DNA of 38,260 nucleotides from a virus: IMG/VR virus record IMGVR_UViG_3300030419_001215, positions 1-38,260 of that record. One strand, written 5' to 3'. Below, piece after piece: positions 770 to 26,700 of this stretch (the first letter of the stretch is position 1; the number at the start of each line of letters is the position of its first letter). Under the pieces are notes generated by a model. The model did not search any database, was not told the DNA's origin, and saw only the letters and a program-made list of their open reading frames with translations. Made by a program: the position numbers and the translations under genes.

Positions 770-996
770 AGAGGATTCTGAGGAAAGACTGCCAAGTGTT
801 CTACAGGAAAATCCAACTGTTCCCATACATCACTATTCCCTGCAATCTCCCATGCCATATCCTCTGTTTCAGCTATCACAACTGTCTGGAAGCCACCAGG
901 ATATAAAGACTCATAACCAACAAAAGCAGAAGGGACACGCACAACCCATCCTCTAGGTCTGTACTTAGTGGTTTCCGTAGGTCTTGATCCATCCAC
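766..996 (-). CDS. Conserved-looking small protein downstream of terL
   Basis: This 76-residue protein has no family that I recognise. A longer in-frame ORF extends upstream inside terL, but GTG at 996 is preceded by CAGGAGCGAAGA, a strong AGGAG ribosome binding site at good spacing, so I choose that start. It then overlaps the last 32 bases of terL in another frame. The sequence is compact and mixed alpha/beta in feel, rich in Trp, Pro and Glu, with no membrane segment. Co-transcription and probably translational coupling with terL are implied. A role in packaging or in a small virion component is possible but unproven. Confidence 0.65.
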   Translation of the reverse strand: MDGSRPTETTKYRPRGWVVRVPSAFVGYESLYPGGFQTVVIAETEDMAWEIAGNSDVWEQLDFPVEHLAVFPQNPL

Positions 997-2695
997 TCTT
1001 CGCTCCTGGTTTTGACATTTTTTCAAGAGGGACACCAAGTATTTGTGCATCGAGAATGCTCTCAATATCACCTTTATACGCTGCCAATTCCAAGTCCCAG
1101 AGTTCTTGTTCACGTTCTTTAATAGCTCTATCTTCATCTATAGCAAGAGACTCGTTCCAATACTGAACTGCACCAGCTAATGAGTCTAATCTGTCATCAT
1201 GTTGTAAACATTGTTTGTCGACAGTGAGATGAGTTAATTGATGAAACAACTGATATGCCAAAGCTGTCTCTACGGAATCATCATCTCTAGCTTTGGAATC
1301 ATCTTCAATTACCGAGCGATTAAAAATCAACCGATGTTGATTCATCACTGGTTCAAGAGCATTAATAATTCTTCTTTCCTTCTGGACGTTGCTCCTGGTC
1401 GGTTCAATCGTACAAGGATAGATATTTCTTAAATATGGCTGCAGGAGGCTCTCCATCATGCCTTGACCAAACTGATCTTCCAAGAGGATTAACTTAACCT
1501 TTCTACGCTTTGCAGCCTCTGCCAGACCCCTTAGAACAGGCTCGGTATATCCTTCACGGAAGGAACCCACCTCCAATACAAATAAATTTCCATTGAGATG
1601 AGCGACAATAGAATAAGCAGTTTCATCTAGACCCTTACCTGAAGGATCTATAAACATTACACAGCCTTGGAAATCAATCCACTGCCCATGTATAAACGCT
1701 GGCCTGTGATAATAATCTCCACTAAATCCAACAGCAGGTAAATCATTAATCCGATATTCAGCACCTGAAGACCACACTACTTTTTCTGGTGCTTCCTGAT
1801 TTACTTCTAAAACGATTAGGTCAGATAATCTAAGAGGGAAACGATTTAGATCACTGAGGGTTGTATCTAGTTGAAACTGAAGCGTGAATTGCGATTTACC
1901 ATAACTAGCTTCTCTTTCGACCAAATCCATCTCATTAAAACGATCAGGATCAGTTGGCTCATTAACATGTTCGACACAATTATCTAATATCATTGGTGCT
2001 AGAGATGCACCATATTTCTGTGGTTTCTTTGGATATCTAGAAGGCCAAACTCTACAGGTATAGCCTTTCTGTTGGAGCTTATTATATATACTTTCTTCCG
2101 TCTGAGGCGTACCCAGGAACATAATTTCTCCCCCTGGTTTCAGGATCGCATTAAATTCTCCGACAGATACAATTAATTTCTCTCTCATCCCTACAGTCCA
2201 AGCTGTATTAGGAACCTCGCAGTCATCTGCAAGTATTAAATCTGCTCTACTACCAGTTAACTGTCCAAAAATACCGACGGACTTAACAGACGGTGACTGA
2301 TCTGGTGTCGCTGGCCTTACATCAAATCTATTACTAGCACTTCTTTGCTCATCCCTATCTGGTTCTAAGCACTTCAATATATCCATTTCCCTAATCAGCC
2401 TTAAACAAAACTGTGCAAAGTCATCTGCTCGCATCTTGCTGGCAGATACAACCATGATTTTCTTCTGTGGATCATTCCTTAACAGCCACAACACATAGGC
2501 TGCTGCCATCCAACTCTTACCAACACCACGAAAAGCTTCAATAATCCTTCTCTTTGGTCCATCTTGCATGTATTCAGCTATATCTAACTGAACCGGTGTG
2601 GGATTAGGAAGTTGTAAATGCTTCCATACGACAACTAAAAAGTACCTAAAGTCTTCCCTAAACTGCTCAGGTAACGGTACCCACTTCTCTTTCAC
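965..2695 (-). CDS. terL: Terminase large subunit (T7 gp19-like packaging ATPase and nuclease)
   Basis: This is the motor that drives concatemeric DNA into the prohead and cuts it at genome ends. The 576 residues carry the ATPase domain with a Walker A variant RGVGKS (about residues 56-61), Walker B DLILADD (152-158) and the coupling motif FLGTPQTE (194-201). The C-terminal RuvC-like nuclease has acidic residues in MFIDPSG (Asp350), LLED (406-407) and HDDRLD (499-504). Length matches T7 gp19 (586). The start is GTG, four bases after the terS stop. In T7 and most relatives terL lies at the right end on the same strand as the other genes. Here it is on the opposite strand, to the left of the early genes. 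Confidence 0.95.
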   Translation of the reverse strand: MKEKWVPLPEQFREDFRYFLVVVWKHLQLPNPTPVQLDIAEYMQDGPKRRIIEAFRGVGKSWMAAAYVLWLLRNDPQKKIMVVSASKMRADDFAQFCLRLIREMDILKCLEPDRDEQRSASNRFDVRPATPDQSPSVKSVGIFGQLTGSRADLILADDCEVPNTAWTVGMREKLIVSVGEFNAILKPGGEIMFLGTPQTEESIYNKLQQKGYTCRVWPSRYPKKPQKYGASLAPMILDNCVEHVNEPTDPDRFNEMDLVEREASYGKSQFTLQFQLDTTLSDLNRFPLRLSDLIVLEVNQEAPEKVVWSSGAEYRINDLPAVGFSGDYYHRPAFIHGQWIDFQGCVMFIDPSGKGLDETAYSIVAHLNGNLFVLEVGSFREGYTEPVLRGLAEAAKRRKVKLILLEDQFGQGMMESLLQPYLRNIYPCTIEPTRSNVQKERRIINALEPVMNQHRLIFNRSVIEDDSKARDDDSVETALAYQLFHQLTHLTVDKQCLQHDDRLDSLAGAVQYWNESLAIDEDRAIKEREQELWDLELAAYKGDIESILDAQILGVPLEKMSKPGAKSGWIKTYGNH

Positions 2696-4901: not shown

Positions 4902-5135
4902 ATGTCTATTACTTCAACTAAGAAGATCATCTGCACAGATGGTAAGTGCATAGTCACCGAACACTATGCACCCATGCGTAAAGCTTCCCGAGTAGGGAGT
5001 GTAGGTAAAAACATCAAGTGCCCTCATTGTGAAAGAACAGTGAGGGCTTTTAACTTGAGCTTTCCCAGTCTCACTTGTCCCACTTGTAAGACTGATGTCC
5101 CTAAATATGAATGGATGATTGAACGTGGATCTTGA
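4902..5135 (+). CDS. Small zinc-ribbon protein
   Basis: The 77-residue protein carries two cysteine pairs, CPHC and CPTC, about 20 residues apart, which form a zinc-ribbon-like site. A further Cys pair (CTDGKC) lies near the N-terminus. ATG 4902 is chosen because AGAGAAGGG lies upstream at suitable spacing and it begins four bases after the previous stop. A longer in-frame reading inside the previous gene is unlikely. Its 3' end slightly overlaps the RNA polymerase start. A nucleic-acid or host RNA polymerase partner is typical for such proteins, but there is no direct evidence here. Confidence 0.7.
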   Translation: MSITSTKKIICTDGKCIVTEHYAPMRKASRVGSVGKNIKCPHCERTVRAFNLSFPSLTCPTCKTDVPKYEWMIERGS

Positions 5136-7497
5136 TACCGAACTAAAATGGGAAGACAAGATGAGTCTCAGCGGTCAACAATACCGGAGATATAAAGAGA
5201 ACTCACGCAAGCTCACAAAGGCACAGTCTCTGTCTTCTTGGGGAGAGGGACTGTGTTCTTTTGGTTATGAGAAAATCATTGAGCATGTAGAAGACATTAA
5301 AAAAAAGGTTGAGTCAGGTGTGGCTGGTATTGCACACTCCCAACTCAAACCCCTATTACAGCTTCCTTCTGAAGTGGTAGCAGGCACCACAATGAGAACA
5401 ATAGTAGATCAATTAACTATTGCTCCAAGTCTTCATCAATTAGCAATGGAATTAGCTGATAGATTGTGGATAGAAGCAATGCTTAATCGTTTAACTAAAA
5501 CGCAAATCAAAAAATATCAAAGAAGCAGACAACGTAAGCGACATAAGATAGAAAGCCTTAAACATATGCAGAATACAGAAGAATGGACAGCTAAAGAACG
5601 TATGACTTGTGGAGCTACATTAATATATATAGCAGAAAAAGAGACAGGTTTAATTAAAATTATTCGAGATGATTTACCTAATAAAAAACGTAGAGTTGTT
5701 CAACCTACAGAAGAATGTATGAAGTGGATTAGTGATGCTCAGTATGCAGACGAACTAATGACACCTCACTATTTACCTACACTTATACCACCTAAAAAGT
5801 ATAATAATAAATTAAAAGGCGGATACCATAACAAGAGAATAGCAATTGATTTATTTAAATCTAACAACGAATTACTCTCTAAGATATCTAAAGGTAACGA
5901 ACCTTATATACAAGCAGCAGAAATCCAAGCGAATGTAGCCTGGAGAATTAAGTCTTGGATGTTAGATGCTATTACACATGCTTACGAACAGAACCTAGAA
6001 GTAGGTTGTTTAATACCTATTAATGGCTGGCCCATTCCTCCATATCCTAAGCACCTAGATGAAGATGATCCTGCTGTATTGAAATGGAGAGTTAGAGCAA
6101 GATCATTACATATAAAGAACGAGGCAAGTAAAAGCCATAGGATTCATAACGCTATCTTGCTTAATGTCGCTAGACAAATGGCAAGTAAAGGAGAATTCTT
6201 TTTTCCTGTTCAACTAGATAAGCGAGGAAGATTTTATTACCGTCCGCCATACTTAAACCCACAAGGCAATGACTTAGCCAGGTCATTATTGGAGTTCGGT
6301 TACTACACATATATACAAACAGAAGAACAAGCCCATTGGTTACGCATACATGGAGCAAATTTATATGGACTTAAGTCTGACTGGAGGACTCGTATCGATT
6401 GGGTAAAAGAACACGACCAGTTAATCAAAGGAGCAGGTAATGATCCTTGGGCTAACCCTCAGTTTTGGATGAGAGCAGATAAGCCTTGGTCTTTTCTTTC
6501 TTTCTGTCGTACCTATTACGAGTGGAGTCTTGATGGTCCGGCGTATAAATGTCATCAACCTGTAATGCTGGACTGTACTGCATCTGGAATACAGCATTAC
6601 TCAGGATTTCTAAGACATGAAGGCATGGCTGAGATGGTGAACTGTAAGAACAGTGATAAGCCACAAGATATTTATGCAGTTGTTATGCAGAAAGTTAATG
6701 ATCGACTAAGAGATGAGAAAGATGAGCACGCTAGGAAGTGGTTAATGCTTCAACCTGATAGATCATTAGCTAAGAATCCTGTGATGTGTATTCCATACGC
6801 CGCTTCATACTCAGGCTTTTATAGCTTTGCTTATAAGTGGGGAATTAAAAGAGCTAAAGATCTATATGGGAATAAAAATTGGATGAGTAAGAAAGGATCT
6901 GCCAGTACTATTCATTACATGGCAAAGATATTGCATGAAGAAACTAGCAAGACAATAGAGCCAGCAGTCCAAGCAATGACATGGTTTAAAGCTGTAGGTT
7001 CAGCGGCTGGCAAAGCTAATACACCACTAAGATGGACAACACCTTCACAATTATTAGTACATCAACAATATAATAAGACTCAAGATAGACGAATAAGACT
7101 TAAGTATTCATCAGACATTTGCTTAGATATTAGAGTCAAAGAAGACTGTCCTACACTGAATACTACTAAGATGAGTAACGGTTTAAGTGCAAACATAATA
7201 CATTCAATGGATTCTGCTTTGATGTGTGCTACAACTATTAATGCGACAGCAAAAAATGTTATCAACATAGGAGGTATTCACGACTGCTTCATCGCAACTC
7301 CCAGTGAAATGAGTGCATTAAGAGATGCAGTTCGAGAATCTTTTGTCGATATCTATAAAGATGATTGGCTAACAAGAATCAAGACTGAACTTAAAGCACA
7401 AATTCCCAAGACAAAACAAGAGGATCTACCTTCTGAACCCCAGCTAGGTAACTTCGATCCAACACACACACTGTCCTCAAATTATTTCATCACTTAA
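5125..7497 (+). CDS. T7-type single-subunit RNA polymerase
   Basis: This polymerase transcribes middle and late phage genes from phage promoters. With the GTG start at 5125 it has 790 residues, shorter than T7 gp1 (883), a trimming typical of cyanophage enzymes. Catalytic landmarks are visible. The palm motif DCTASGIQH has its Asp at about residue 483. R-S-L-A-K has Arg546 and Lys550, equivalent to T7 R627 and K631, then Tyr558, equivalent to Y639. IHDCF has His719-Asp720, equivalent to H811-D812. The residue after the Tyr is Ala, where T7 has Gly640. The end has the aromatic character of the T7 foot. TTG 5119 and ATG 5161 are alternative starts; the segment between them resembles the family N-terminus, so I prefer 5125. 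No lysozyme-type inhibitor is seen. Confidence 0.95.
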   Translation: MDLDTELKWEDKMSLSGQQYRRYKENSRKLTKAQSLSSWGEGLCSFGYEKIIEHVEDIKKKVESGVAGIAHSQLKPLLQLPSEVVAGTTMRTIVDQLTIAPSLHQLAMELADRLWIEAMLNRLTKTQIKKYQRSRQRKRHKIESLKHMQNTEEWTAKERMTCGATLIYIAEKETGLIKIIRDDLPNKKRRVVQPTEECMKWISDAQYADELMTPHYLPTLIPPKKYNNKLKGGYHNKRIAIDLFKSNNELLSKISKGNEPYIQAAEIQANVAWRIKSWMLDAITHAYEQNLEVGCLIPINGWPIPPYPKHLDEDDPAVLKWRVRARSLHIKNEASKSHRIHNAILLNVARQMASKGEFFFPVQLDKRGRFYYRPPYLNPQGNDLARSLLEFGYYTYIQTEEQAHWLRIHGANLYGLKSDWRTRIDWVKEHDQLIKGAGNDPWANPQFWMRADKPWSFLSFCRTYYEWSLDGPAYKCHQPVMLDCTASGIQHYSGFLRHEGMAEMVNCKNSDKPQDIYAVVMQKVNDRLRDEKDEHARKWLMLQPDRSLAKNPVMCIPYAASYSGFYSFAYKWGIKRAKDLYGNKNWMSKKGSASTIHYMAKILHEETSKTIEPAVQAMTWFKAVGSAAGKANTPLRWTTPSQLLVHQQYNKTQDRRIRLKYSSDICLDIRVKEDCPTLNTTKMSNGLSANIIHSMDSALMCATTINATAKNVINIGGIHDCFIATPSEMSALRDAVRESFVDIYKDDWLTRIKTELKAQIPKTKQEDLPSEPQLGNFDPTHTLSSNYFIT

Positions 7498-7501
7498 TCA
7501 A

Positions 7502-8146
7502 ATGGATTTCATTGATCTCAAACCAATTCAACTGACCACACCTGAAAACACAAGACTTACTTGGTCATGGCTTGTTAATGCAGATGACAAGTTCCCTCCT
7601 GCCAGATGGCAAGTAACAGCAGTCATTCCTAATAGCCCTGCTGCTGTAGAGCTAGGAGAAAAACTAGATACTTTCTATCTCAACTTTAAGAAAGCATTGA
7701 AAGCTGCCTTCCCTGACAAGAAGAAGGATGACTACAAGTGGAACGACCTACCTTATAAGTGGGCTGACCACGATGAGCTAGGTCTTAAGAATGCTTTGAT
7801 CCTCAAGTGCAATAAGAAGACACATACACAAGAAGGAACACCCAAAACACCACCAATTATTTTTGATAGCAGTCAGAAAGAACCGCTAAACGATGAGCAG
7901 AAAAGGAAATATATAAAGATTGGTCCAGGTACTACAGCACAAGTAGCCCTGTATGTCAGTCAGTACAACCTAGGTGTCGGTACTGGTATCAGGCTTACAC
8001 CTGCTGCTGTAAATATTAAAAACTTTATACCCTTTGGAAGTCAGGCTAATAGTGCTCAAGACTGGGGGTTCACAGTTGATAACGAACCCACCAAAAAACA
8101 AGATGCCACGCCATCATCAAGGAACACAGACGACTTCGACTTCTAA
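7502..8146 (+). CDS. Single-stranded DNA-binding protein (T7 gp2.5-like)
   Basis: This protein coats single-stranded DNA and organises the phage replisome. The 214 residues compare with 232 for T7 gp2.5. A central OB-fold-like region includes WQVTAVIP and, late in the protein, TTAQVALYVSQYNLGVGTG, a segment like the gp2.5 family. The last residues are DDFDF, an acidic tail ending in Phe, which in T7 contacts the polymerase and helicase and in bacterial SSBs recruits host proteins. The gene follows the RNA polymerase by four bases, its usual place. The last 44 bases overlap the endonuclease gene. Identification rests on tail, size and position together. Confidence 0.85.
   Translation: MDFIDLKPIQLTTPENTRLTWSWLVNADDKFPPARWQVTAVIPNSPAAVELGEKLDTFYLNFKKALKAAFPDKKKDDYKWNDLPYKWADHDELGLKNALILKCNKKTHTQEGTPKTPPIIFDSSQKEPLNDEQKRKYIKIGPGTTAQVALYVSQYNLGVGTGIRLTPAAVNIKNFIPFGSQANSAQDWGFTVDNEPTKKQDATPSSRNTDDFDF
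8087..8094 (+). promoter_or_regulatory. CCCACCAA box, 8 nt before start codon
   Basis: Copy of the recurring box inside the 3' end of the SSB gene, eight bases before the endonuclease ATG at 8103. The run of A residues after it replaces any Shine-Dalgarno sequence. Confidence 0.5.
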
Positions 8147-8498
8147 TAAATATAGAAGTAAGTTCGAAGCTTCCATCGCTGCTAAGTTACATGCCAAAAA
8201 TGTCGCCTTCACGTATGAATCTATACGGCTTGACTACACCCTCGAAGGAAACTACTGCCCAGATTTTATTCTCCCGAATGGTGTCATCGTTGAGACCAAA
8301 GGTCACTTCAAGTCCGAAGATAGACGAAAGATGGTTGCGATTAAGGCGCAACATCCCAATCTAGATATACGCTTCTGCTTTCAGAATGCTAATGAAAAGA
8401 TTAGCAGGAAGAAAAATAGTATGCGGTATTTTGAGTGGTGCGATAGGCATGGATTTAAGTGGTGTCATAAACAAATCCCACCCGACTGGTACAACTAA
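8103..8498 (+). CDS. Endonuclease I / Holliday junction resolvase (T7 gp3-like)
   Basis: This nuclease resolves branched DNA and helps degrade the host chromosome into nucleotides. The 131-residue product shares the T7 gp3 core: FEASIAAKL supplies the first acidic residue, CPDFILPNG the catalytic Asp and VETKG the Glu-x-Lys pair. HPNLDIRFCF and IPPDW also match gp3. I choose ATG 8103 over the upstream in-frame ATG at 8034 because it follows a CCCACCAA box and gives a gp3-like length (149 in T7). It overlaps the SSB gene by 44 bases. Confidence 0.93.
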   Translation: MPRHHQGTQTTSTSNKYRSKFEASIAAKLHAKNVAFTYESIRLDYTLEGNYCPDFILPNGVIVETKGHFKSEDRRKMVAIKAQHPNLDIRFCFQNANEKISRKKNSMRYFEWCDRHGFKWCHKQIPPDWYN

Positions 8499-8921: not shown

Positions 8922-9093
8922 CGACAAGTATCGCTACAAAGTACGAGTCTCTTCTCCCAAGGGCTATGTAATTGATGAATACATCGTTGCAACTAGTAAA
9001 GAGAAGGCACATCAAAGAGCTTTAGGAAAATATGGGGAAGGGCATAAGGCTCTTGTCCTTGACTGGGAGCCAATCAATGCCGTCTTCGAGTAA
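8896..9093 (+). CDS. Small hypothetical protein upstream of primase-helicase
   Basis: This 65-residue protein has a strand-helix-strand feel (YKVRVSSPKGYVIDEYIVA, then KEKAHQRALGKYG). It resembles short basic proteins scattered through phage replication operons, but I cannot name a family. It overlaps the previous gene by 26 bases and the primase-helicase start by 17, so the translation of all three is probably linked. No cysteine cluster or membrane helix. Confidence 0.65.
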   Translation: MPYTNARTSDKYRYKVRVSSPKGYVIDEYIVATSKEKAHQRALGKYGEGHKALVLDWEPINAVFE

Positions 9094-10693
9094 GGAAGTA
9101 AGCAGAGGGCCATGCCCTAACTGCGACACAAGAAAGGGAATGATCCTCTTCGATGATGGTCATTCCCACTGCTTCTCATGTGATCACCAGATCCAACCAA
9201 AAAAAGAAAAGGAGTATCGACCAGTGTCAGTGCCTACAGCACAAAGAAGCAAGCTGCTTAAAAACTTACAGCCATTCAAGAAAGAGTGGCGTGGTCTTAC
9301 TGTCGAAACTCTTAACTTCTTTAGTTACTGCCAAGCTTTCTATCGTGAGCAGCAGGTACACGTTGCTACTTATAACGATCAACAAGGACTACCATCTGCA
9401 CAACACCTGCGATTCAGAGACAAGAAGTTTATTTGGATAGCTGACGATGGTATCAGTGGCCTTCAATTGTGGGCACAAAGTAAGTGGCGACAGAATCATG
9501 GCAAGCAAGCCAATATGTTCTGCGTTATTTGCGAAGGAGAAGTTGATGCAATGAGTGTGTCGCAAGTACAAGGCAACAAGTTTCCAGTTGTTTCGTTGCC
9601 ATCAGGTACACAGTCAGTTAAGAAAGCAATAGGCGCAAATCTTAAATGGCTTTCTCAATTCGCATGGGTTGTTATCTGTTTCGACAGTGACGAACCTGGA
9701 CAGAAAGCAGCACAGCAAGCACTCGAACTACTCCCTGCTGGCAAGGCAGCTATCTGCAGACTTCCAAGGAAGGATGCTAATGAGATGCTCCAATCAGGAG
9801 AAGGAGAGCTACTTAAAGACTTGTTGTGGAAGGCCACACCTGCTCGACCGGATTCGATCCGTGAGGCATCAACATTATGGGAAGAATTTATAAAACCAAA
9901 TGCTAAAGCTGTATGCCCATACCCTTGGACACAACTTAATAACTATGCCTATGGTTTTCGCAAGGGAGAAATGGTTACAATTGCTGCGGGATCAGGCACG
10001 GGTAAGAGCACCGTGTGTAGGGAGTTGGCTTATCACTTCCTCTCACAGAAATTAAGAGTTGGCTACATAGCATTAGAAGAGAGTTTAGCTAGGACACTTA
10101 AGGGCATAGTGGGGGTTGCACTTAACAAACCTTTGCATTTAGATGAGGAGGCATTAGATCCCCGTCACCTCAAGACGACCTTTGATTCTTTACTAGGGTC
10201 AGGTCGTCTATTTTTATACGATCACTTTGGATCAATTGATCCAGATCGTTTAGTCGAACAAATTAATTACTTGGCAACAGTAGAAGAAGTTGATGTTGTA
10301 ATACTTGATCACTTAACAATAGTTGTCAGTGGGATTGCTGACTTAGATGAACGTCGAGCTTTAGACGTTACGTGTACTAAGTTGAGACAATGTGTTGAAG
10401 CGACAGGTGTAGGTCTAATAATTGTTTCACACTTGCGTAGACCTGAAGGTAAAGGACATGAAGAGGGAGTAAAGGTATCACTCAATCATTTGAGAGGTAG
10501 CCATAGCATTGCTCAGTTGAGCGATATAGTAATTAGCTGTTCAAGAAATCAACAAGGTGATGCTGGTGAACGTAGTCAGTTGCAGCTAGGGGTTTTGAAG
10601 AATCGCTTTAGCGGTCGTACAGGCGAGGTTGATAAACTTTTATATGATGAACAGACAGGGCGACTAGTACAACCCACCACTTTTTTTCAATGA
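9077..10693 (+). CDS. Primase-helicase (T7 gp4-like)
   Basis: This hexameric enzyme unwinds DNA and makes primers at the fork. From ATG 9077, which has GGGAG upstream, it has 538 residues (T7: 566). In order: a zinc-binding domain with Cys13, Cys16, Cys32 and Cys35; a TOPRIM primase with Glu153 (CEGEVDAM) and Asp203/Asp205 (FDSDEPG); and a RecA-like helicase with Walker A GSGTGKST (305-312), Walker B VVILDH and the later motifs IIVSHLRRP and LRGSHSIAQLSD. The protein ends PTTFFQ, without the acidic tail that T7 gp4 uses to bind T7 DNA polymerase. Its stop overlaps the exonuclease start as ATGA, which leaves no room for a polymerase gene between them. Confidence 0.96.
   Translation: MPSSSKEVSRGPCPNCDTRKGMILFDDGHSHCFSCDHQIQPKKEKEYRPVSVPTAQRSKLLKNLQPFKKEWRGLTVETLNFFSYCQAFYREQQVHVATYNDQQGLPSAQHLRFRDKKFIWIADDGISGLQLWAQSKWRQNHGKQANMFCVICEGEVDAMSVSQVQGNKFPVVSLPSGTQSVKKAIGANLKWLSQFAWVVICFDSDEPGQKAAQQALELLPAGKAAICRLPRKDANEMLQSGEGELLKDLLWKATPARPDSIREASTLWEEFIKPNAKAVCPYPWTQLNNYAYGFRKGEMVTIAAGSGTGKSTVCRELAYHFLSQKLRVGYIALEESLARTLKGIVGVALNKPLHLDEEALDPRHLKTTFDSLLGSGRLFLYDHFGSIDPDRLVEQINYLATVEEVDVVILDHLTIVVSGIADLDERRALDVTCTKLRQCVEATGVGLIIVSHLRRPEGKGHEEGVKVSLNHLRGSHSIAQLSDIVISCSRNQQGDAGERSQLQLGVLKNRFSGRTGEVDKLLYDEQTGRLVQPTTFFQ
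10673..10680 (+). promoter_or_regulatory. CCCACCAC box, 9 nt before start codon
   Basis: Copy of the recurring box (AACCCACCAC followed by seven T) inside the end of the primase-helicase gene, nine bases before the exonuclease ATG at 10690. There is no Shine-Dalgarno sequence. Confidence 0.55.
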
Positions 10694-11427
10694 CTCTACT
10701 AATAGATACCGACATGCTTGTTTACTCTTGCTGCTGTGCAGTAGAGGAAGACTTCAAGTTCAACGATGACCAGCATGTACTTGTCTCATCAGAACGTGAT
10801 GCATTAGATTGCATAGCCATGAGACTAGAGGAATACCAGTCTATCACTGGGGATAGAGGCAAGATCATTATGTGTCTCTCTGACTATCCAACATTTAGAC
10901 ATGAAGTTTATGGTCAATATAAAGCTAATCGAATAGGTAAACGTAAGCCCTTAGCTTTTAAGAATGTAGTCGAAGCAGTCAAAAGATATCACGATGTTGC
11001 TGTCTATCCCAACCTTGAAGCTGATGATGTGATGAGCATCCTTGCGACTGAGGAGATACACCCCACCCGTGTCATAGTTTCAGGTGATAAAGATATGAAG
11101 TCAGTACCCTGCATTCTTCTGAGGAATGGAGATCTTGAAACCATTTCTGAAAAGAGGGCAAATAGAAACTGGATGGTGCAAACTTTATGTGGTGATAGGT
11201 GCGACAACATACCTGGGTTGGTAGGTGTCGGGCCAAAAACTGCTGAAAAAATTTTGGGAGATTCAGAAACTCTTTCTGATATGTGGGATAAAGTAATAGG
11301 TGCATATGAGAAGAGGAAACTTACATACAAATCAGCATTACTTTCAGCACGACTTACTAGAATCTTGAGACATGGAGACTACGATATATATAAACAACAA
11401 GTAAAACTTTGGGAGCCCACCACATGA
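10690..11427 (+). CDS. 5'-3' exonuclease (T7 gp6-like, FEN family)
   Basis: In T7 this nuclease removes RNA primers and degrades host DNA. The 245 residues (T7 gp6: 300) carry FEN-family acidic motifs: LLIDTDMLVY at the N-terminus, LEADDVMSIL, VSGDKDM and GDRCDNIPGLVGVGPKTA, the last a helix-hairpin-helix-like DNA-binding loop. YKANR before the first cluster and KLWEP at the end also match gp6. It overlaps the primase-helicase by four bases upstream and the next small gene by four bases downstream. In other T7-like phages the DNA polymerase gene sits just upstream; here it is absent. Confidence 0.93.
   Translation: MTLLIDTDMLVYSCCCAVEEDFKFNDDQHVLVSSERDALDCIAMRLEEYQSITGDRGKIIMCLSDYPTFRHEVYGQYKANRIGKRKPLAFKNVVEAVKRYHDVAVYPNLEADDVMSILATEEIHPTRVIVSGDKDMKSVPCILLRNGDLETISEKRANRNWMVQTLCGDRCDNIPGLVGVGPKTAEKILGDSETLSDMWDKVIGAYEKRKLTYKSALLSARLTRILRHGDYDIYKQQVKLWEPTT
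11416..11423 (+). promoter_or_regulatory. CCCACCAC box abutting start codon
   Basis: Copy of the recurring box that ends at the base before ATG 11424. With zero spacing it can act neither as a Shine-Dalgarno-like site nor as a promoter with a leader. This argues for recognition of the box itself or of the start codon context. Confidence 0.5.
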
Positions 11428-15683: not shown

Positions 15684-16661
15684 GTGGCTAATTTTACAGC
15701 TTCGAGACTGGGTTATGTAAATAACACCGGTACTGCGAACTACGCAAACTTAAACGAACTTTTCCTCAAGACATTTAGTAATGAGGTTTTGACTGCCTTT
15801 CGTAAGGCGACCGTGTTCGAGGCGCTACACACTGTACGCACGATCAAGTCAGGCAAATCAGCCCAATTTCCAATAATTGGACTTTCTCAAACTTCATATC
15901 ATACGCCGGGCACCCAACTGACAGGCAACGCTATCAAGCATGCTGAAGCTGTTATCAACATCGATGACAAGCTCGTATCAAACGTATTCGTTGCTGACAT
16001 TGATGAGGCTAAGAACCATTATGACGTTCGTAGCCAGTACACCAATGAGATGGGTAACGCATTAGCGTACACATTTGACAAGAACGTAGCAGCTACTATT
16101 GCTCAAGCAGCAAGGACTGGTACTAACTTCAACACTGATCTACCTGGTGGTACTCGTATCAAGATTGTTGCTTCTAGTAAAGCAGCTATCACAGGAGCAC
16201 AGCTAGTCAGTGCAATGTGGTCAGCAGCCGAGCAGTTTGACATCAACAATGTTCCTGAGGATGGGAGATACTTGGCACTTGGCCCAACTGAGTACTACAA
16301 AATCGCTCAGACAACAGACGTACTCAACAGAGACTGGGGTGGTTCTGGAGCATACGCAGATGGAACAGTCTTGAAGGTCGCTGGTATCAGCATCATCAAG
16401 TCAAACCATCTACCAACTACAAACCGTTCTGCTGTAACTGGTGAGAACAACACATACCACGCTAACTACACAGATAGCGTAGGCCTATGCTTTAACAAGC
16501 AAGCTGTTGGTACTGTTAAGTTGATGGATCTGAAGATGGAACAAACTGGTTCTGATGTACATGCATTATGGCAAGGTACATTCATGGTCGGATCTATGGT
16601 TCATGGTACTGGAGTCTTACGTCCAGACTGTGCTATCGAAATCTACACAGCGACAAGCTAA
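15684..16661 (+). CDS. Major capsid protein (T7 gp10A-like)
   Basis: This is the HK97-fold subunit of the icosahedral head. The 325 residues (T7 gp10A: 345) include features of the podovirus capsid family: NELFLKTFSNEVLTAF and SGKSAQFPIIG in the N-arm and E-loop region, INIDDKLVSNVFVADIDEA in the spine, and PEDGRYLALGPTEYYKI further on. The start is GTG in ATCGTGGCTA after a pyrimidine-rich leader, without a Shine-Dalgarno sequence. An intrinsic terminator follows eight bases after the stop, as in T7, where it lowers expression of downstream tail genes. I see no frameshifted gp10B-like extension. Confidence 0.95.
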   Translation: MANFTASRLGYVNNTGTANYANLNELFLKTFSNEVLTAFRKATVFEALHTVRTIKSGKSAQFPIIGLSQTSYHTPGTQLTGNAIKHAEAVINIDDKLVSNVFVADIDEAKNHYDVRSQYTNEMGNALAYTFDKNVAATIAQAARTGTNFNTDLPGGTRIKIVASSKAAITGAQLVSAMWSAAEQFDINNVPEDGRYLALGPTEYYKIAQTTDVLNRDWGGSGAYADGTVLKVAGISIIKSNHLPTTNRSAVTGENNTYHANYTDSVGLCFNKQAVGTVKLMDLKMEQTGSDVHALWQGTFMVGSMVHGTGVLRPDCAIEIYTATS

Positions 16662-17305: not shown

Positions 17306-20260
17306 ATGCCTTTAATTACTTCTTCTATCCCAAACCTAATTAATGGAGTAAGTCAACAACCACCGGCACTAAGACTTGCATCTCAAGGAGAAACACAGAT
17401 TAATTGTATGCCTAGTCCTGTTGAAGGATTAAAGAAGCGATCTCCAATGAGTCATATCGCTAAACTATGGACAACTTCAGCAGGATCTAATAGACCTTTT
17501 GTTCATTTAGTAGACAGAGATGGTGTCGTTCAATATATGGTTGTCATTCAAGATGGAGCAATAAGAGTATGTGATTTAGATGGAACTGTTTATACAACAG
17601 ACAATGGGAAATTAACTGTTCCTGATGGTGTTAGCTATTTAGATATAACAGGTACACCTTCTGAAACTTTTAGAGTTGCATCTCTTGCTGATTACACCTT
17701 CATAGTTAATAGAGAAAAACCTGTTGCAATGTCCACGGATACTTCTCCTTTAGGACTTGTCGGTTCATCAATGATATTTATTAAAGGTGCTAATTACGAT
17801 ACAACTTACAAAGCAAATATCAATGGAACAGAAAAAGAATATACAACAATGCCAGCAGGAGGTAAAAAAATTCCAGCAAGTTATAGCCAATCAGGAACAA
17901 CAGCAGTAACTATTACTGCTACTAATCATGGATTAGTTGCTGGTGATGAAGTTCATATGACATTTGCAGCAGGAGAAACAGCAGTAGCAGGTACTTACAC
18001 AGTCTTAAGTGGTGGACTTACAGCTAATCAATTCTCCTATACAGCAAGTAGTTCTATTACAAACTCAGGAAACTGTGAAATTAAATATGATCCACCACTA
18101 TCAACAGTAACAATTGCAGAGAAATTAGCAGAGCAGCTAAATGATATTTCTGGCTTCACAGTTACAAATGATGAGTACATTATTCATATAACAAAAGATG
18201 CAGGGAATGATAGTTACACAATAGGAAGTAGCGACAATAAGACAGGAGAAGATACCAAAGCAATTAAAGGAGTAGTCGATGATATGGATGATCTTCCTAT
18301 CATGGCTAAAAATAATTTCATAGTCAAAGTTCAAGGAAGTAAATCTACAGACCTCGATGATTATTACGTTAGATTTGTAGGAAACTTAGAATCAACAACT
18401 CTAAAGACAGCTTCTTATACTCAGTCTGGCACTACCGTCACGGTAACAGCCATTGATCATGGCTTCACTGCTGGAGATAAATTCGAAATAATAGTTGCAC
18501 CAGGAGAAACTGCTGTTGATGGTATCTATACAGTTTTATCTGGTGGACTTACAGCTAATCAATTCACTTACACAGCAGGTACTTCACTTACAGATGCTGG
18601 TAGTTGTCAAGTAAGAGGACATAATTTCGGTGAGGGTAGATGGAAAGAAACAGTCGCACCTGGAATTCCTTATAGGTTTGACGGTTCAACAATGCCTCAT
18701 ACATTGATAAGAGAAGTAGCTAACAATGGAGATGTTTCTTTTGTCTTTCGACAATATAAAAGGAAAGATGATAATGACAATTTAGTTAGTGCATGGGGAG
18801 AACGTTTAGCAGGAGATGAAACAACTTCACCAAACCCAAGTTTTATAAATACAGATATACCTGTCGCTATTCAAAACTTAAACTTATTTAGAAATAGATT
18901 AGTTTTATTAGCTGGAGAAAATGTAATCCTTTCTGCTGCTGATGCTTATGAAAGATTCTGGCCTGAAACTGTTCAAACAAATGTACCTAGTGATCCTATT
19001 GATTTAACAACAGGTGGTACTTCTATTAACTTCCTTGTTTCTAGTGTCGCATTTGCCAATACTTTATTGCTCTTCAGTAGACATGCACAATTCAGATTAG
19101 ATGCTGGCATTAATACTGGTTCTTCTATGACACCAGACAATGCCACTATCACAGCGATGACAGCTTATGACATGGCTGCTGGTGTTGATCCTGTTGCTGT
19201 TGGTCGTAACCTTTATTTCCCGATTCCTAAAGGACCAAACTTTAGTGGTGTTCGAGAATTCTTCTTGCCGGATTCAAGTGGTTCAGTTCCTTTATCTGAA
19301 GATATAACATCAAGTGTTCCTAGATATATACCAAGTAACTTATGTAGTTTCATTGCTTCTGTATCAGAAGAGGCTCTAATTCTTATAAGTAAGGATCAAC
19401 CTAAACGTTTATATCTATATAAATTCTATTTTGAAGATGATACTAAGCTTCAATCTTCATGGTCTTATTGGGAAGTAAGCGGAGCAAAAACTATTTTAGG
19501 TGCAGGAATAATCGACAGTGATTTATATGCTGTCGTTGAATATAGCGATGGTGTTTACTTAGAACATGTAGTAATAAGACCTGAGAATGTAGATGCAGGT
19601 ACAGAAATGGAAATACTATTAGATAGAAAAACAACAGAACCAGCAAGCGGATCTCTTGCTCTTATTAATGCAGGAGCTTTAGGAGTTCAGACAACAATCA
19701 CTCTTCCTTATCCTATTGCGTCAGGAGCAGAGATGGTAGTAGTAGGAAGATACGAAGAAAATAATACTCTTCTAAGACATGGACAAGTCATTGAACCACT
19801 GTCTCAAACATCTAATTCAATAACAGTACCTGGTGATTTAAAGACAGTCGTAGGTGGTAAAACTCCACGCTTTTTTATTGGCGAAAGATATAGTATGACT
19901 TATGAATTTAGTACACCTTATATTAAAGAACAGCCCCCAGGTGGTGGTGTTGCTTTAGCTGCTGGTCCAAAATTACAAATGAGAACTTGGACTGTTGTCT
20001 TTGATGAGTCCTCTGCTTTTGAATTAAAAGTTACTCCTGCTAGTAGAGATACAAATACATATCCTTACAATGGAATTATCCTCGGTCAATCTCCTCCATT
20101 AATAGGAGATCCATCTATTCTTACGGGAACATTTCGTGTTCCTGTGATGGCAAGCAATATAGATACTAAGATAGAACTTAGTAGTACGAGTCCATTACCT
20201 TGTCGATTCCAATCAGCCGAATGGGAAGGGTTCTATCACACAAGAGCAAAGAGGCAATAG
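17306..20260 (+). CDS. Tail tubular protein B / nozzle (T7 gp12-like) with duplicated insert
   Basis: This protein forms the distal tail tube and anchors the fibres. The start SSIPNLINGVSQQPPALRL is diagnostic of the family. At 984 residues it is longer than T7 gp12 (794). Much of the excess comes from two related domains at about residues 190-260 and 369-440, each with SQSGTT or TQSGTT, a GETAV motif and TVLSGGLTANQF. At the DNA level they share GGTGGACTTACAGCTAATCA exactly, so the duplication is recent or homogenised. The C-terminus ends EWEGFYHTRAKRQ, typical of marine relatives. It overlaps the next gene. Confidence 0.95.
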   Translation: MPLITSSIPNLINGVSQQPPALRLASQGETQINCMPSPVEGLKKRSPMSHIAKLWTTSAGSNRPFVHLVDRDGVVQYMVVIQDGAIRVCDLDGTVYTTDNGKLTVPDGVSYLDITGTPSETFRVASLADYTFIVNREKPVAMSTDTSPLGLVGSSMIFIKGANYDTTYKANINGTEKEYTTMPAGGKKIPASYSQSGTTAVTITATNHGLVAGDEVHMTFAAGETAVAGTYTVLSGGLTANQFSYTASSSITNSGNCEIKYDPPLSTVTIAEKLAEQLNDISGFTVTNDEYIIHITKDAGNDSYTIGSSDNKTGEDTKAIKGVVDDMDDLPIMAKNNFIVKVQGSKSTDLDDYYVRFVGNLESTTLKTASYTQSGTTVTVTAIDHGFTAGDKFEIIVAPGETAVDGIYTVLSGGLTANQFTYTAGTSLTDAGSCQVRGHNFGEGRWKETVAPGIPYRFDGSTMPHTLIREVANNGDVSFVFRQYKRKDDNDNLVSAWGERLAGDETTSPNPSFINTDIPVAIQNLNLFRNRLVLLAGENVILSAADAYERFWPETVQTNVPSDPIDLTTGGTSINFLVSSVAFANTLLLFSRHAQFRLDAGINTGSSMTPDNATITAMTAYDMAAGVDPVAVGRNLYFPIPKGPNFSGVREFFLPDSSGSVPLSEDITSSVPRYIPSNLCSFIASVSEEALILISKDQPKRLYLYKFYFEDDTKLQSSWSYWEVSGAKTILGAGIIDSDLYAVVEYSDGVYLEHVVIRPENVDAGTEMEILLDRKTTEPASGSLALINAGALGVQTTITLPYPIASGAEMVVVGRYEENNTLLRHGQVIEPLSQTSNSITVPGDLKTVVGGKTPRFFIGERYSMTYEFSTPYIKEQPPGGGVALAAGPKLQMRTWTVVFDESSAFELKVTPASRDTNTYPYNGIILGQSPPLIGDPSILTGTFRVPVMASNIDTKIELSSTSPLPCRFQSAEWEGFYHTRAKRQ
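17875..18617 (+). repeat. Duplicated domain inside tail tubular B gene
   Basis: Two copies, about 17875-18084 and 18411-18617, encode related beta-rich segments of about 70 residues. Their strongest nucleotide match is around GGTGGACTTACAGCTAATCA, with close similarity on both sides. They are separated by about 110 residues of unrelated sequence. Confidence 0.75.
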
Positions 20261-21404: not shown

Positions 21405-23690
21405 ATGGCTAGAACGCAGGGTCAAACCCGATACTCAGCAACAGGTCTTCAATCAAGGAAGAGAGCTTACACGGATGAAGCCACTGGCTCTGTCGGCACT
21501 CCTCTTAAAGGATTAGAAATTCAAGCACCTCGTCTTAATCCTCAAGCTGCACCTGTTAATTCCTTTATAAGAACAGGTAGACCTAACGCACCTGGAGCAG
21601 TTCAATTAGGTGAGCTTGCAAAACTTCCTGAACCAGCAGAGATAACCAATCTTCAAAGGCTTGCAAATGAACTTGGCTCCTTAAATGCAAATTTAAAAGG
21701 TGCTGTCTCTTCCTTTCTTAGTACTCAAGAATATATTGACGATCAAGTAAAACTAGAAGCAAAATCTATTCTTGATCAAACAGCTAAAACAGGTCGCAAT
21801 CCAGAAGAAACTCTAGCTCAGATTGCTAAAGAGATGATTGTCATCTCAAGTAACCCTGAAAATGATATTAAAGAAAGAAAAGGTGCAGAGAAAATATTAA
21901 CTCGGTTGCAAACTGATGGAAGATTAAAACGACATCTTCTTTCTGAAGCAAAGAAACAGGAAGTAATTAATAACGCTTCTAATTTGAAAGAAAAATTAGC
22001 CAATATAAATGTAATTGATCCGACAGAAGGAGAAGTACCTCTTCATTCAATACCTTCTAGTGATCCTAGATTCCTTGAGGCAATAAAACCCCATATTTAT
22101 GGTGATCATATATTAAATCCTAGAGAAAACAATGAGATCAGACCTACAATTATAAATAATATTGCTAACTATAAAGCAATACATGATAAGAAACATCGAA
22201 TATATCAGACCAAGCAATTAAGACTATCTCAAGCCAGTAGGATTAAAGGAATTGGCAACAATATAGCTACAAATGGAATGTCTTCTATCGTTGAAAGTGC
22301 TGCTGGACTACAAACAATATTAGATGAGACTCGTCTTAAGTTGCCTGGTTTAAGTATAGAAGAACTTAATAGAGTAAATGAAACTTTAATCGATGATTTA
22401 ACTCGTGGATTCTTACAAAACAACAAAGGTGGCAACACGGATGTCTTAGAAGAAATTCTTGCTAGTTTAATGGTTGGACCAATAGAAGGTAGAACAAAAC
22501 AAGTTGAAAATGCAGATGGTAGCGTGAGTACAATAATTAATGAAAAGCAAAGATGGATTAATCAGTTTGGTGGCAGGCCTTGGCTAGAAGAACAAATCAT
22601 TTCTGCTAAATATAAACTTGCACAGAATGATGAAAAAGAAGAAAGACAATATATTATATTTGAAAAGGATAAAGCTGATACATCTTTACAAGAGGGAACT
22701 GATGAAGATCCTAGTGTCTTAGAACTAATCCAGAAAAAAGATTTTGAAGGCGCAAGAGCAAAGTTAGAAACATTAAAGACAGAATACAGATCTAATGCTA
22801 TTGCTAATAATGTCGATTCTTCTGCCATTAGTGAAGTCTTAGTTCATTACGATAATGTCTTTAAAAAATTCACCCAAGCAAATTCATTTGACATGAATAG
22901 TCGAATGACAGAAATCACAAGACTATTACCAACTGCACTCCTTAGTGTTTCAGATGCTGCAACAGTATTAGATTTATTAAGGTCACTTCAAGAAGAATAT
23001 GGACACGAAAAAGAAGTTGCTGATTTTGCACTTAAAGTTAGCCAACAGCTTGATTATTCAAAGCTGCCAGACGTGAAACAACAAATGAAAGGTTTAACCG
23101 ATTTGTTAGGTGAAATAGAGAAAGATTGGAAAGATTATTCAGTACGACCTGAATCTGCTGGTGGAGAAGATTCAACTATAGAATTCTCCGAATGGGGTAA
23201 CGCTTATTCTCAAGGAATGGATATAGGAACAGAAATTATTATTAGAAATTTAAAAAACAACACACCAGGAAATATCGCAAAAGAACTTCAACAAGTAATT
23301 ACAAGAAGAAACTTAGGATTAGTCAAGGAAATTGAAAAGCAATGGTCAACAGATACAGGTGTTGAATTTGAAGGAACCTCTGAAAATGCTTTAGCAGATA
23401 TATATGATCGATTTAATCTTGAGAGAGCAGATATTGGGCCTAATAAACGACAAGAATTAATTAGAGCTGTTCAAGGTTATAAGCCGATGTTTGGCCCTGA
23501 CACGATTAGAGAGATGGCAACTCAAGCTTTTCAGGGGAAAATGGATAGGAGACTAAGACGAATTTTAAAAGAATCAGGCAAGAAGCCAGGTGATTTCTTT
23601 ATAGAACAAATGGAGAAATTCAACGGTTATATCGTATTACCTAAACAAGAGAGAGATAATCTTCTAAGATTGAACGAAGTACCCCTTTAA
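21405..23690 (+). CDS. Internal virion protein (T7 gp15-like)
   Basis: In T7, gp15 forms a tube across the periplasm during DNA ejection. The 761-residue length is almost that of T7 gp15 (747). The protein is predominantly helical and charged, with repeated amphipathic stretches and no membrane helix. Near the N-terminus it has ETLAQIAKEMIVISSNPEND. Sequence identity to T7 is low by eye, so the assignment rests on length, helical composition and the fixed order gp14-gp15-gp16. It is followed after 12 bases by the giant gp16-position gene. Confidence 0.85.
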   Translation: MARTQGQTRYSATGLQSRKRAYTDEATGSVGTPLKGLEIQAPRLNPQAAPVNSFIRTGRPNAPGAVQLGELAKLPEPAEITNLQRLANELGSLNANLKGAVSSFLSTQEYIDDQVKLEAKSILDQTAKTGRNPEETLAQIAKEMIVISSNPENDIKERKGAEKILTRLQTDGRLKRHLLSEAKKQEVINNASNLKEKLANINVIDPTEGEVPLHSIPSSDPRFLEAIKPHIYGDHILNPRENNEIRPTIINNIANYKAIHDKKHRIYQTKQLRLSQASRIKGIGNNIATNGMSSIVESAAGLQTILDETRLKLPGLSIEELNRVNETLIDDLTRGFLQNNKGGNTDVLEEILASLMVGPIEGRTKQVENADGSVSTIINEKQRWINQFGGRPWLEEQIISAKYKLAQNDEKEERQYIIFEKDKADTSLQEGTDEDPSVLELIQKKDFEGARAKLETLKTEYRSNAIANNVDSSAISEVLVHYDNVFKKFTQANSFDMNSRMTEITRLLPTALLSVSDAATVLDLLRSLQEEYGHEKEVADFALKVSQQLDYSKLPDVKQQMKGLTDLLGEIEKDWKDYSVRPESAGGEDSTIEFSEWGNAYSQGMDIGTEIIIRNLKNNTPGNIAKELQQVITRRNLGLVKEIEKQWSTDTGVEFEGTSENALADIYDRFNLERADIGPNKRQELIRAVQGYKPMFGPDTIREMATQAFQGKMDRRLRRILKESGKKPGDFFIEQMEKFNGYIVLPKQERDNLLRLNEVPL

Positions 23691-23702: not shown

Positions 23703-26700
23703 ATGGAGACGACCATTATAGATGAAGAGACTAATACCGAGTCTCAAACATGGTCGGCCCCTGCAAATTTTGAAATACCTACTAAGTTTGAAGATATTCA
23801 AACTGAAGAGTTAACAGACGAACAAGACCAAAAAATTATTAATGAGTCAATTACAAATGATAAAGACCAAAAGATTATTGATGGGTCAATTACAAATGAT
23901 AAAGACCAAGAAATTATTAATAGGCACGAAGAAATATCTGGGGAGGGAGGTGAAACAACTTCCCTTTCACCAAAGTCAAGCCTTATAAAAGCGACAGGTA
24001 CATTATCTAGCTCTTTACCTAAAAATTGGGTGAATAGACAATTGGTCAGTATGATCAATCTCCCAACTCAGAAAGCTTATAACAACCTACTTGATTTCTT
24101 ATCACAACCAAAGAGCATTCTAGGAGGTCGTCAGCTTGACCCAGACGAATATTCATATGAGAAGTTTCCCTGGATGTATGAGAGGGAATTCGTATTAAAT
24201 GAAAATCAAGCTTTAATACAACTTAAAGAAGGTATAGATGAAAATCAATCTATAGCAGATGCTTTAGATCCTAATACATCACGTAGATATGAAACGAGAT
24301 TAGTTGGTCCTATCCTGAGTGGGAATCCCTTCGACCCAGATGGAGTAAAAAGATCTCTTGTTAGTATTGCAGGAAAGGAGCACGGGCTACTCGGTAGCTG
24401 GATAAAACCAAGAACAGCTAATGAGGAAGGAAAATGGGAAGATTATAATTTCCTATGGTCAGATAAGCCTCTTGCGTATGAAGAAAATATATTAACAGTA
24501 GGAGTTCCTTGGCTTCTTACTTTTGTAGCACTGTCTAGAAAAGGACAAATTAAAGCTGATGCCTTTAATTTAAAAAAAGTAGAATCAATGTTTAGACTTG
24601 GGTTATCAAAAGGGACATTAAATGGTCTCCTTTTACGACTCAAAGCAAGAGGTCTCAGAGCTTCAACAGAAGGATTAGCAACATCTGCAATAGTTAATCA
24701 AATATATGGAACACCAGGAGATACAGAGTTACTAGGAGCTGCTTCTGATTTTGTAACTGCCCTTGGTGATCAAATGGGTGTTGATCTAAGAAATCCGATC
24801 ATTGAATATTTCAACTCTGAAAATACAGCTAATGATCCATATCAAAAAGCAAAAACTAGAAATGCTATAGCTCAATTACTCATGGGGCCTATTGAAGGAT
24901 TCGTACCTGAAGGCATTGGAATGACTAAGAATCTCTTAATTAAATCAACACCTGCTGTATCAAGATCTTTATATAAAGGTTTAGCTTCTGGATTTGAAAC
25001 ACAGATTGAAAAATTCTCAGACTTTATTTTTGATTTACTCAGTAAACAGAAAGCTGAAAGTGATTTAAATCTAGCTAAGACATTAGCTAAGAAGGGTCCT
25101 GAAACTATAAAACAAATAGAAGTCATCCCCACTGAAAGAGTTACAGGAAGCAACCTTTCAAAGAAAACAGGTAAAAAGATAGAACAGAAAGGAACACAAG
25201 AAGAATTAGATGCCCAAGTTAAAGAAGCAGAAGTAGAAGTTCTTAAGACAGAAGAGAATATAGATAAGTCGATGGAGAATCTTCAGAAAAGAGATGGTTT
25301 AATACAAAAGATTTTACTAAATGAACAAAGAAAAGTTGCACAGTCTGATGCAAGAACATTAAGAGAAACAGATGCAGTATTAAAGCAAACAAGAAAAGGT
25401 CGTAAGAAGATAGAACCTGGTACACCTCATCCAACAGATCCTAATAAAGTTAGAAGTAATAATGGTAGATGGGTTACTAAGGCTTACTACGACAAAGTTA
25501 ATAAAGCATTAGCAGGGGCAGAAGAAATTAAAAAAGAAGTTGGATCTACTTTTTATCACGGGACAAGTAAAAATAATATTCAAGAAGTCAGTGGTGCAGA
25601 TGTTCAACTTTATGGCCCAGGAGTTTATTTGACCAGTTCAAAAAAAGCTGCTAGTCGTCATGGATCTAATGTTCTTAAAACACAAATAGATAGAAATAAT
25701 CTAGTTGATTTAGGTGAATTTCCAAAAGGAAATAATAAAGCTATTAATGCTTTATACGATCAATCCAGAAAACTAAGAGCAGAAGGTAAAGATGTTTTAA
25801 TTAGGAATCATCATGTTTATGGTGATCTAATTATTGCTAATCCAAAAGGAAGCCTCTTTGCAAAAGATAAGGCCAAAATTAAAGATTTAGGTGACTCAAT
25901 TAAAAAAGCAGAAGAGGTTGCTGATTCTCAAAAAACATTAGAACAAATAGAAGCAGAAACTGAATTACTAACTGACGCTGAAATTAAAGAAAAGTTAAGA
26001 GACAACCCAAAATATACAAAGTTAATAAATGATATGGATCAGTTTACGAAAGAGACAAATGAAATCCTTAAAGATATAAATCAACGACATAAAAATATAG
26101 ATAGAATTATTCGTGAAACAGATGAATACCTTGATGGATTAGATGAACAAATATTTGATCCAAAAACAACAATCGAAGACAGACTTAAATTAGAAAGAAT
26201 GTATGCAAGTGCTGATGCTAATAGACAAGATTTAAAACTAGAAAAGAAATATCAAGCTGAACATCTTACAAATGAAATAGGTACCAAAAGTGAAACTGTC
26301 GAAAATCCTTTAACAGAACGTCCTTTCTTTGATTTTGATATTAAAGGTGCAAAGCCTACCTATAGGCAAATGAAGATTGAATTTGAATCAGATGTTGATA
26401 GAGCTATTTATATAGTTACTAAAAGAACAAAAGGAAGTGCCCCTGCAAAATCAAGACCTTTATACATTGAACAATCTAATAAAAATGCAAGTAGTGCCAA
26501 TCATAGATATCTCGAATTCTTATATGAACATGGCATCGGTGATGAATTAATTCTTAAACATGCACCGAAGATATATAACAAGATGGCTGATAATTATAGT
26601 GCTAATAGTGTTTATAACTTAAAAGATACTGGTGCATGGAAGGATGGTAGCGACTTTGATTTTGAAGATATTGATGCTTTACATGGTACAGATGCAGAAG

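Follow-up and report, generated by a model that had tools for sequence, protein, structure and literature searches.

The replisome of phage T7 combines gp2.5, gp4, and gp5 with host thioredoxin. The acidic tails of gp4 bind basic patches on gp5, and when gp4 is shortened by 17 residues, processivity drops from 17 to about 5 kb (PMC12593628). Cai et al. (2022) isolated 18 Prochlorococcus podoviruses without a polymerase, which they named MPP-C, and proposed that such phages either encode a divergent polymerase or recruit one from the host, be it Pol I or, perhaps via the SSB or the helicase, Pol III (PMC9860041). Polymerase-less T7-like phages abound in surface oceans, and that work poses the question of how they copy their DNA. 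Both the absence of the polymerase and the idea of a host polymerase are therefore already published and not new here; our subject is what accompanies the absence at the end of the helicase.

The stretch of DNA analyzed here, hereafter the window, spans the 38,260 bases of an IMG/VR record. This nearly whole genome comes from a T7-like (Autographiviridae) phage belonging to the polymerase-less clade that includes the MPP-C cyanophages (Table 1). With T7 it shares an acidic SSB tail ending in F, a fused primase-helicase, and an endonuclease and exonuclease in T7 order; however, T7 has gp5 and an acidic gp4 tail (...SNDTDF), and the window has neither. The MPP-C phages P-SCSP1a-u and P-SCSP2 resemble the window in having no DNA polymerase gene, in gene order (RNA polymerase, SSB, endonuclease, primase-helicase, exonuclease), and in size (37.3-37.9 kb versus 38.3 kb). 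Identity to P-SCSP1u is 53% for the RNA polymerase and 54% for the helicase, beside the higher terminase and capsid values in Table 1. The MPP-C helicases also lack the acidic-F end, although the endings themselves differ (...TTFFQ in the window, ...SDFFGEKL in P-SCSP1u, and ...ENVFGD in P-SCSP2). In helicase trees, the window clusters with P-SCSP1 and P-SCSP2, apart from MPP-A, MPP-B, and P-RSP2 (support 100), a grouping that is based on these trees and on terminase, capsid, and portal identities, where the published phylogeny used nine concatenated genes. Within the clade it is a separate lineage, and the helicases of its closest contigs are 80-82% identical to its own.

Table 1. Features of the window that bear on replication and relationship
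Feature	Coordinates	Strand	Evidence
Terminase large subunit	965..2695	-	80% identity to P-SCSP1u
T7-type RNA polymerase	5119..7497	+	phrog_414, E=1e-168
gp2.5-like SSB, C-terminus NTDDFDF	7502..8146	+	phrog_112, E=3e-11
Endonuclease I (gp3-like)	8103..8498	+	phrog_945, E=2e-45
gp4-like primase-helicase, 538 aa from 9077	9077..10693	+	phrog_239, E=2e-157
Helicase C-terminal tail codons VQPTTFFQ, replacing the acidic tail	10667..10690	+	last residues pLDDT <50
ATGA stop/start overlap of helicase and exonuclease, at the polymerase gene slot of T7-like phages	10690..10693	+	sequence
gp6-like 5'-3' exonuclease	10690..11427	+	phrog_107, E=8e-54; PF02739 and PF01367
Major capsid protein	15684..16661	+	75% identity to P-SCSP1u

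Small ORFs sit between endonuclease I and the primase-helicase, whose frame is already open from position 9032. MPP-C phages are characterized by a lack of auxiliary metabolic genes, and a general family scan of window ORFs gave no match to psbA, hli, mazG, rnr, talC, or thyX. The tail tubular protein B gene contains a direct repeat of 174 nt (17906-18079 and 18437-18610, 72% identical).

An earlier, sequence-only reading of the window had described a replication cluster of SSB, endonuclease, primase-helicase, and exonuclease with no family A polymerase, and had taken the ATGA join of helicase and exonuclease, lying in the polymerase slot, as a clean absence. PHROGs and profile searches confirm the former, and the sequence itself the latter. 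Searches of the window with family A, B, and C polymerase profiles (PF00476, PF00136, and PF07733) gave no match, while in the same search PF00476 matched three polymerase-positive records at 1e-41 to 1e-50. No ORF in the Pfam, PHROGs, and NCBIfam scan, which covered all but some small ORFs, matched a polymerase, and the remaining large ORFs match terminase or tail-fibre families or nothing. The lineage of polymerase-less marine cyanopodoviruses that the same reading had mentioned is MPP-C (PMC9860041).

That reading also asked whether a polymerase might lie in the part of the genome missing from the window. Aligned with a near-complete relative, G007 (40.4 kb, with ends that overlap by 410 bp at 96%), the window ends at base 565 and begins at about base 1875, so that about 1.3 kb is missing, provided that the two genomes are colinear there. 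T7-like polymerase genes in this comparison span 1.76-2.1 kb, and the gap is thus too small for one; moreover, a profile search found no polymerase in G007, which covers the gap. Polymerases of families A, B, and C were likewise absent from P-SCSP1u, from P-SCSP2, and from 15 clade contigs of 37.7-60.4 kb. Together, these searches show that the window genome, like its clade as a whole, lacks the polymerase gene, which sets it apart from a T7-type replisome with the family A polymerase gp5.

The helicase of the window ends in ...GRLVQPTTFFQ, with a tail of net charge 0 in place of the T7-type acidic tail ending in F. To compare such ends, loci were gathered with seven queries, six of them helicases and one an exonuclease. 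Those matched by a profile of T7-like polymerases were classed as polymerase positive (224), those with helicase and exonuclease within 1.6 kb and no polymerase match as polymerase negative (201), and the rest as unknown (60). Taking the residues after a conserved TGRL-type anchor gave 160 distinct tails, 106 positive and 54 negative, and the counts that follow come from related sequences, not independent replicates. A net charge of -2 or lower was found in 103 of the 106 polymerase-positive tails versus 5 of the 54 polymerase-negative ones (mean net charge, -4.18 versus -0.35). A final F occurs in 87/106 versus 2/54, while two adjacent aromatic residues within the final six mark 48/54 polymerase-negative tails and none of the 106 positive ones. 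None of the polymerase-negative tails compared has the acidic-F ending; instead, the clade tail is short, nearly uncharged, and conserved, and mostly ends in [YF]F followed by G or Q.

In MPP-A and MPP-B cyanophages and in Roseobacter and Pelagibacter T7-like phages, the helicases are homologous to that of the window (about 36-45% identical). Unlike the window, those tested carry a family A polymerase in the slot that separates helicase from exonuclease, and their helicase tails are, with few exceptions, acidic. One pelagiphage group has tails ending in FDE, which are acidic without the final F. L285, one of the three polymerase-positive exceptions, probably reflects a misplaced anchor, and the other two (L509 and L513) are real; the short, near-neutral tails LPQSEIF (L509/L518) and LPKDQIF (L513) show that the converse of the correlation is not strict.

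The proposal that polymerase absence goes with a changed helicase tail holds across the 160 distinct tails, with no acidic-F endings and only 5/54 tails at net -2 among the polymerase-less relatives, where acidic tails would have told against it. Nevertheless, it rests on one evolutionary event: in helicase trees built without the tail, all polymerase-negative helicases fall on one side of a single branch (support 100), so polymerase loss counts as one event in the sample and affords no statistical test of the association. A search for independent losses among helicase relatives of CRP-125 and Pasto gave no further polymerase-negative lineage. The claim that the acidic helicase tail had been lost needs amending, since the acidic end is gone but a conserved aromatic tail has replaced it. 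Literature searches, confined to open-licence papers, found no report of a helicase-tail change, and the replacement is apparently a new, conserved feature of a known clade.

Several observations bear on whether the new tail is maintained. It is conserved across helicases that are just about 52-60% identical. Where at least one member of a pair lacks the exonuclease overlap, pN/pS is 0.20 in the last ten codons versus 0.15 in the body, while pS is equal (0.570 versus 0.573), which argues that the amino acids are conserved rather than an overlapping RNA signal. Pairs in which both carry the overlap give 0.31 versus 0.14; all these ratios are indicative only, because synonymous differences are near saturation and the pairs are non-independent. 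Judged from these comparisons, the tail appears to be maintained by purifying selection rather than decaying as a remnant. In AlphaFold monomer models, the last residues have pLDDT <50 in the window helicase and in a polymerase-positive helicase alike, and both kinds of tail look like free peptides. Two candidate roles for the sequence were rejected. A canonical clamp-binding motif was ruled out, as QL[SD]LF has no exact match in the 54 polymerase-negative tails, and the loose form Qxx[hydrophobic]F occurs in 3. Also, the poly-T run at 10681-10687, considered as a helicase-exonuclease slippage site, is not conserved, and near relatives read ACTTTCTTC.

We favor the reading, at a probability of roughly 0.5, that a host polymerase extends phage primers and that the new helicase tail has been selected for another partner. 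Unwinding, priming, and the coating of ssDNA would remain phage functions; the alignment shows that the zinc cysteines and the Toprim and Walker A residues are kept, so the helicase most likely still primes and unwinds. Primers would then be handed to the host replicative polymerase, most likely the Pol III holoenzyme. Loss of a phage polymerase with basic patches would have left the acidic helicase tail without a partner, and the new tail would have been retained by selection for binding another, plausibly a host replisome protein. The aromatic tail might dock to the host replisome. The fuller proposal, that the clade re-targeted a minimal T7-like replisome to the host replicase and exchanged the acidic tail for a short aromatic docking peptide, is more tentative. 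Several points count against the favored reading: polymerase loss and tail change coincide in one event with no independent replicate, the polymerase-positive tail is modelled as equally unstructured, some polymerase-positive tails are near neutral and end in IF, some MPP-B-like tails carry an internal IFG, and there is no canonical clamp motif.

Some of these points belong as well to a rival that we consider doubtful, though it survives best, namely, that loss was passive: the useless acidic end was truncated, and the leftover aromatics serve the helicase itself, in hexamer packing or solubility, rather than docking. In some MPP-B-like tails (...IPIFGTNTDF), an internal IFG precedes the terminal NTDF, and the YFGT ending resembles this tail with its last residues removed; this offers a simpler origin by truncation, in which the aromatic residues may predate the shortening. 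The polymerase-positive LPQSEIF tail shows no obvious need for charge, either. Purifying selection on the tail across such divergent helicases argues against passive loss, as does the prediction that the tail is unstructured in the monomer.

A less likely alternative is that phage primers are extended by host Pol I rather than Pol III. Pol I belongs to family A, as does T7 gp5, and its recruitment was proposed for MPP-C, but in bacteria it is mainly a repair enzyme (PMC9860041). Nothing in the sequence favors it. Finally, a phage-encoded polymerase too divergent for profiles, also left open in PMC9860041, is very improbable, for although two ORFs of 761 aa (21405-23690) and 2521 aa (23703-31268) match no PHROGs or NCBIfam family, they sit among the virion-protein genes and, unlike a replicative enzyme, show poor conservation across the clade, the replication cluster leaves no polymerase-sized ORF unaccounted for, and polymerase-positive relatives have ordinary family A enzymes.

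If re-targeting to a host replicase is true, a phage helicase-primase drives a bacterial polymerase. The conserved tail provides a specific handle on how polymerase-less phages copy their DNA, since it is a defined peptide, about eight residues long, that can serve as bait for its partner.

The SSB tail, in contrast, carries no such information. The sequence-only reading saw in its DDFDF ending a possible sign of rewiring through the SSB, which is not borne out: distinct SSB tails end in [DE]F in 63/64 polymerase-negative and 69/72 polymerase-positive cases, and an ending common to both groups says nothing about rewiring. In the window (8103-8146), the codons of this tail, read in a second frame, also encode the beginning of endonuclease I, where 8103 is our choice of start and the mechanically called ORF opens at 8034. 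The same arrangement occurs in P-SCSP2, and dual coding could account for part of the tail's conservation.

The polymerase-less clade is wider than the described MPP-C isolates. Contigs of 58-65% G+C (L053, L124, L408, and others) share both the absence and the tail, and near-genome-length records among them have no polymerase. Their terminase and capsid proteins are 74-79% identical to those of the window, as close as P-SCSP1u and closer than P-SCSP2 (48-51%), which indicates that, by these genes, the clade reaches beyond the described marine phages. MPP-C phages infect marine picocyanobacteria; for the window, an environmental contig, a search for hosts via genome contigs yielded only metagenome bins, namely, the MAG bacterium TMED161, which contains two polymerase-less phage contigs (L418 and L419), and one weak match.

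The helicase-exonuclease slot of the G+C-rich relatives carries small genes (L052, L053, L054, L056, L058, L117, L119, L376, and L408). Directly after the helicase there is often an NrdR-like zinc ribbon (PF22811, as tested with the protein of L053), and ThyX is found in the slot by PF02511 in L054 and by sequence in L376 and L407. A polymerase hidden in the slot was ruled out, its content being the zinc ribbon, ThyX, or small ORFs.

Two clade records deserve comment. In G023 (60,395 bases; L433-L435), the first 1.2 kb recurs, 90% identical, at 38.6-39.9 kb; this suggests that the record joins two related genomes and does not represent a larger phage. P-SCSP2 (L002, OM416780), in which no recognizable endonuclease I was reported (PMC9860041), has an unannotated endonuclease I at 5209-5622 that is 50% identical to that of the window and overlaps the end of the SSB gene in another frame.
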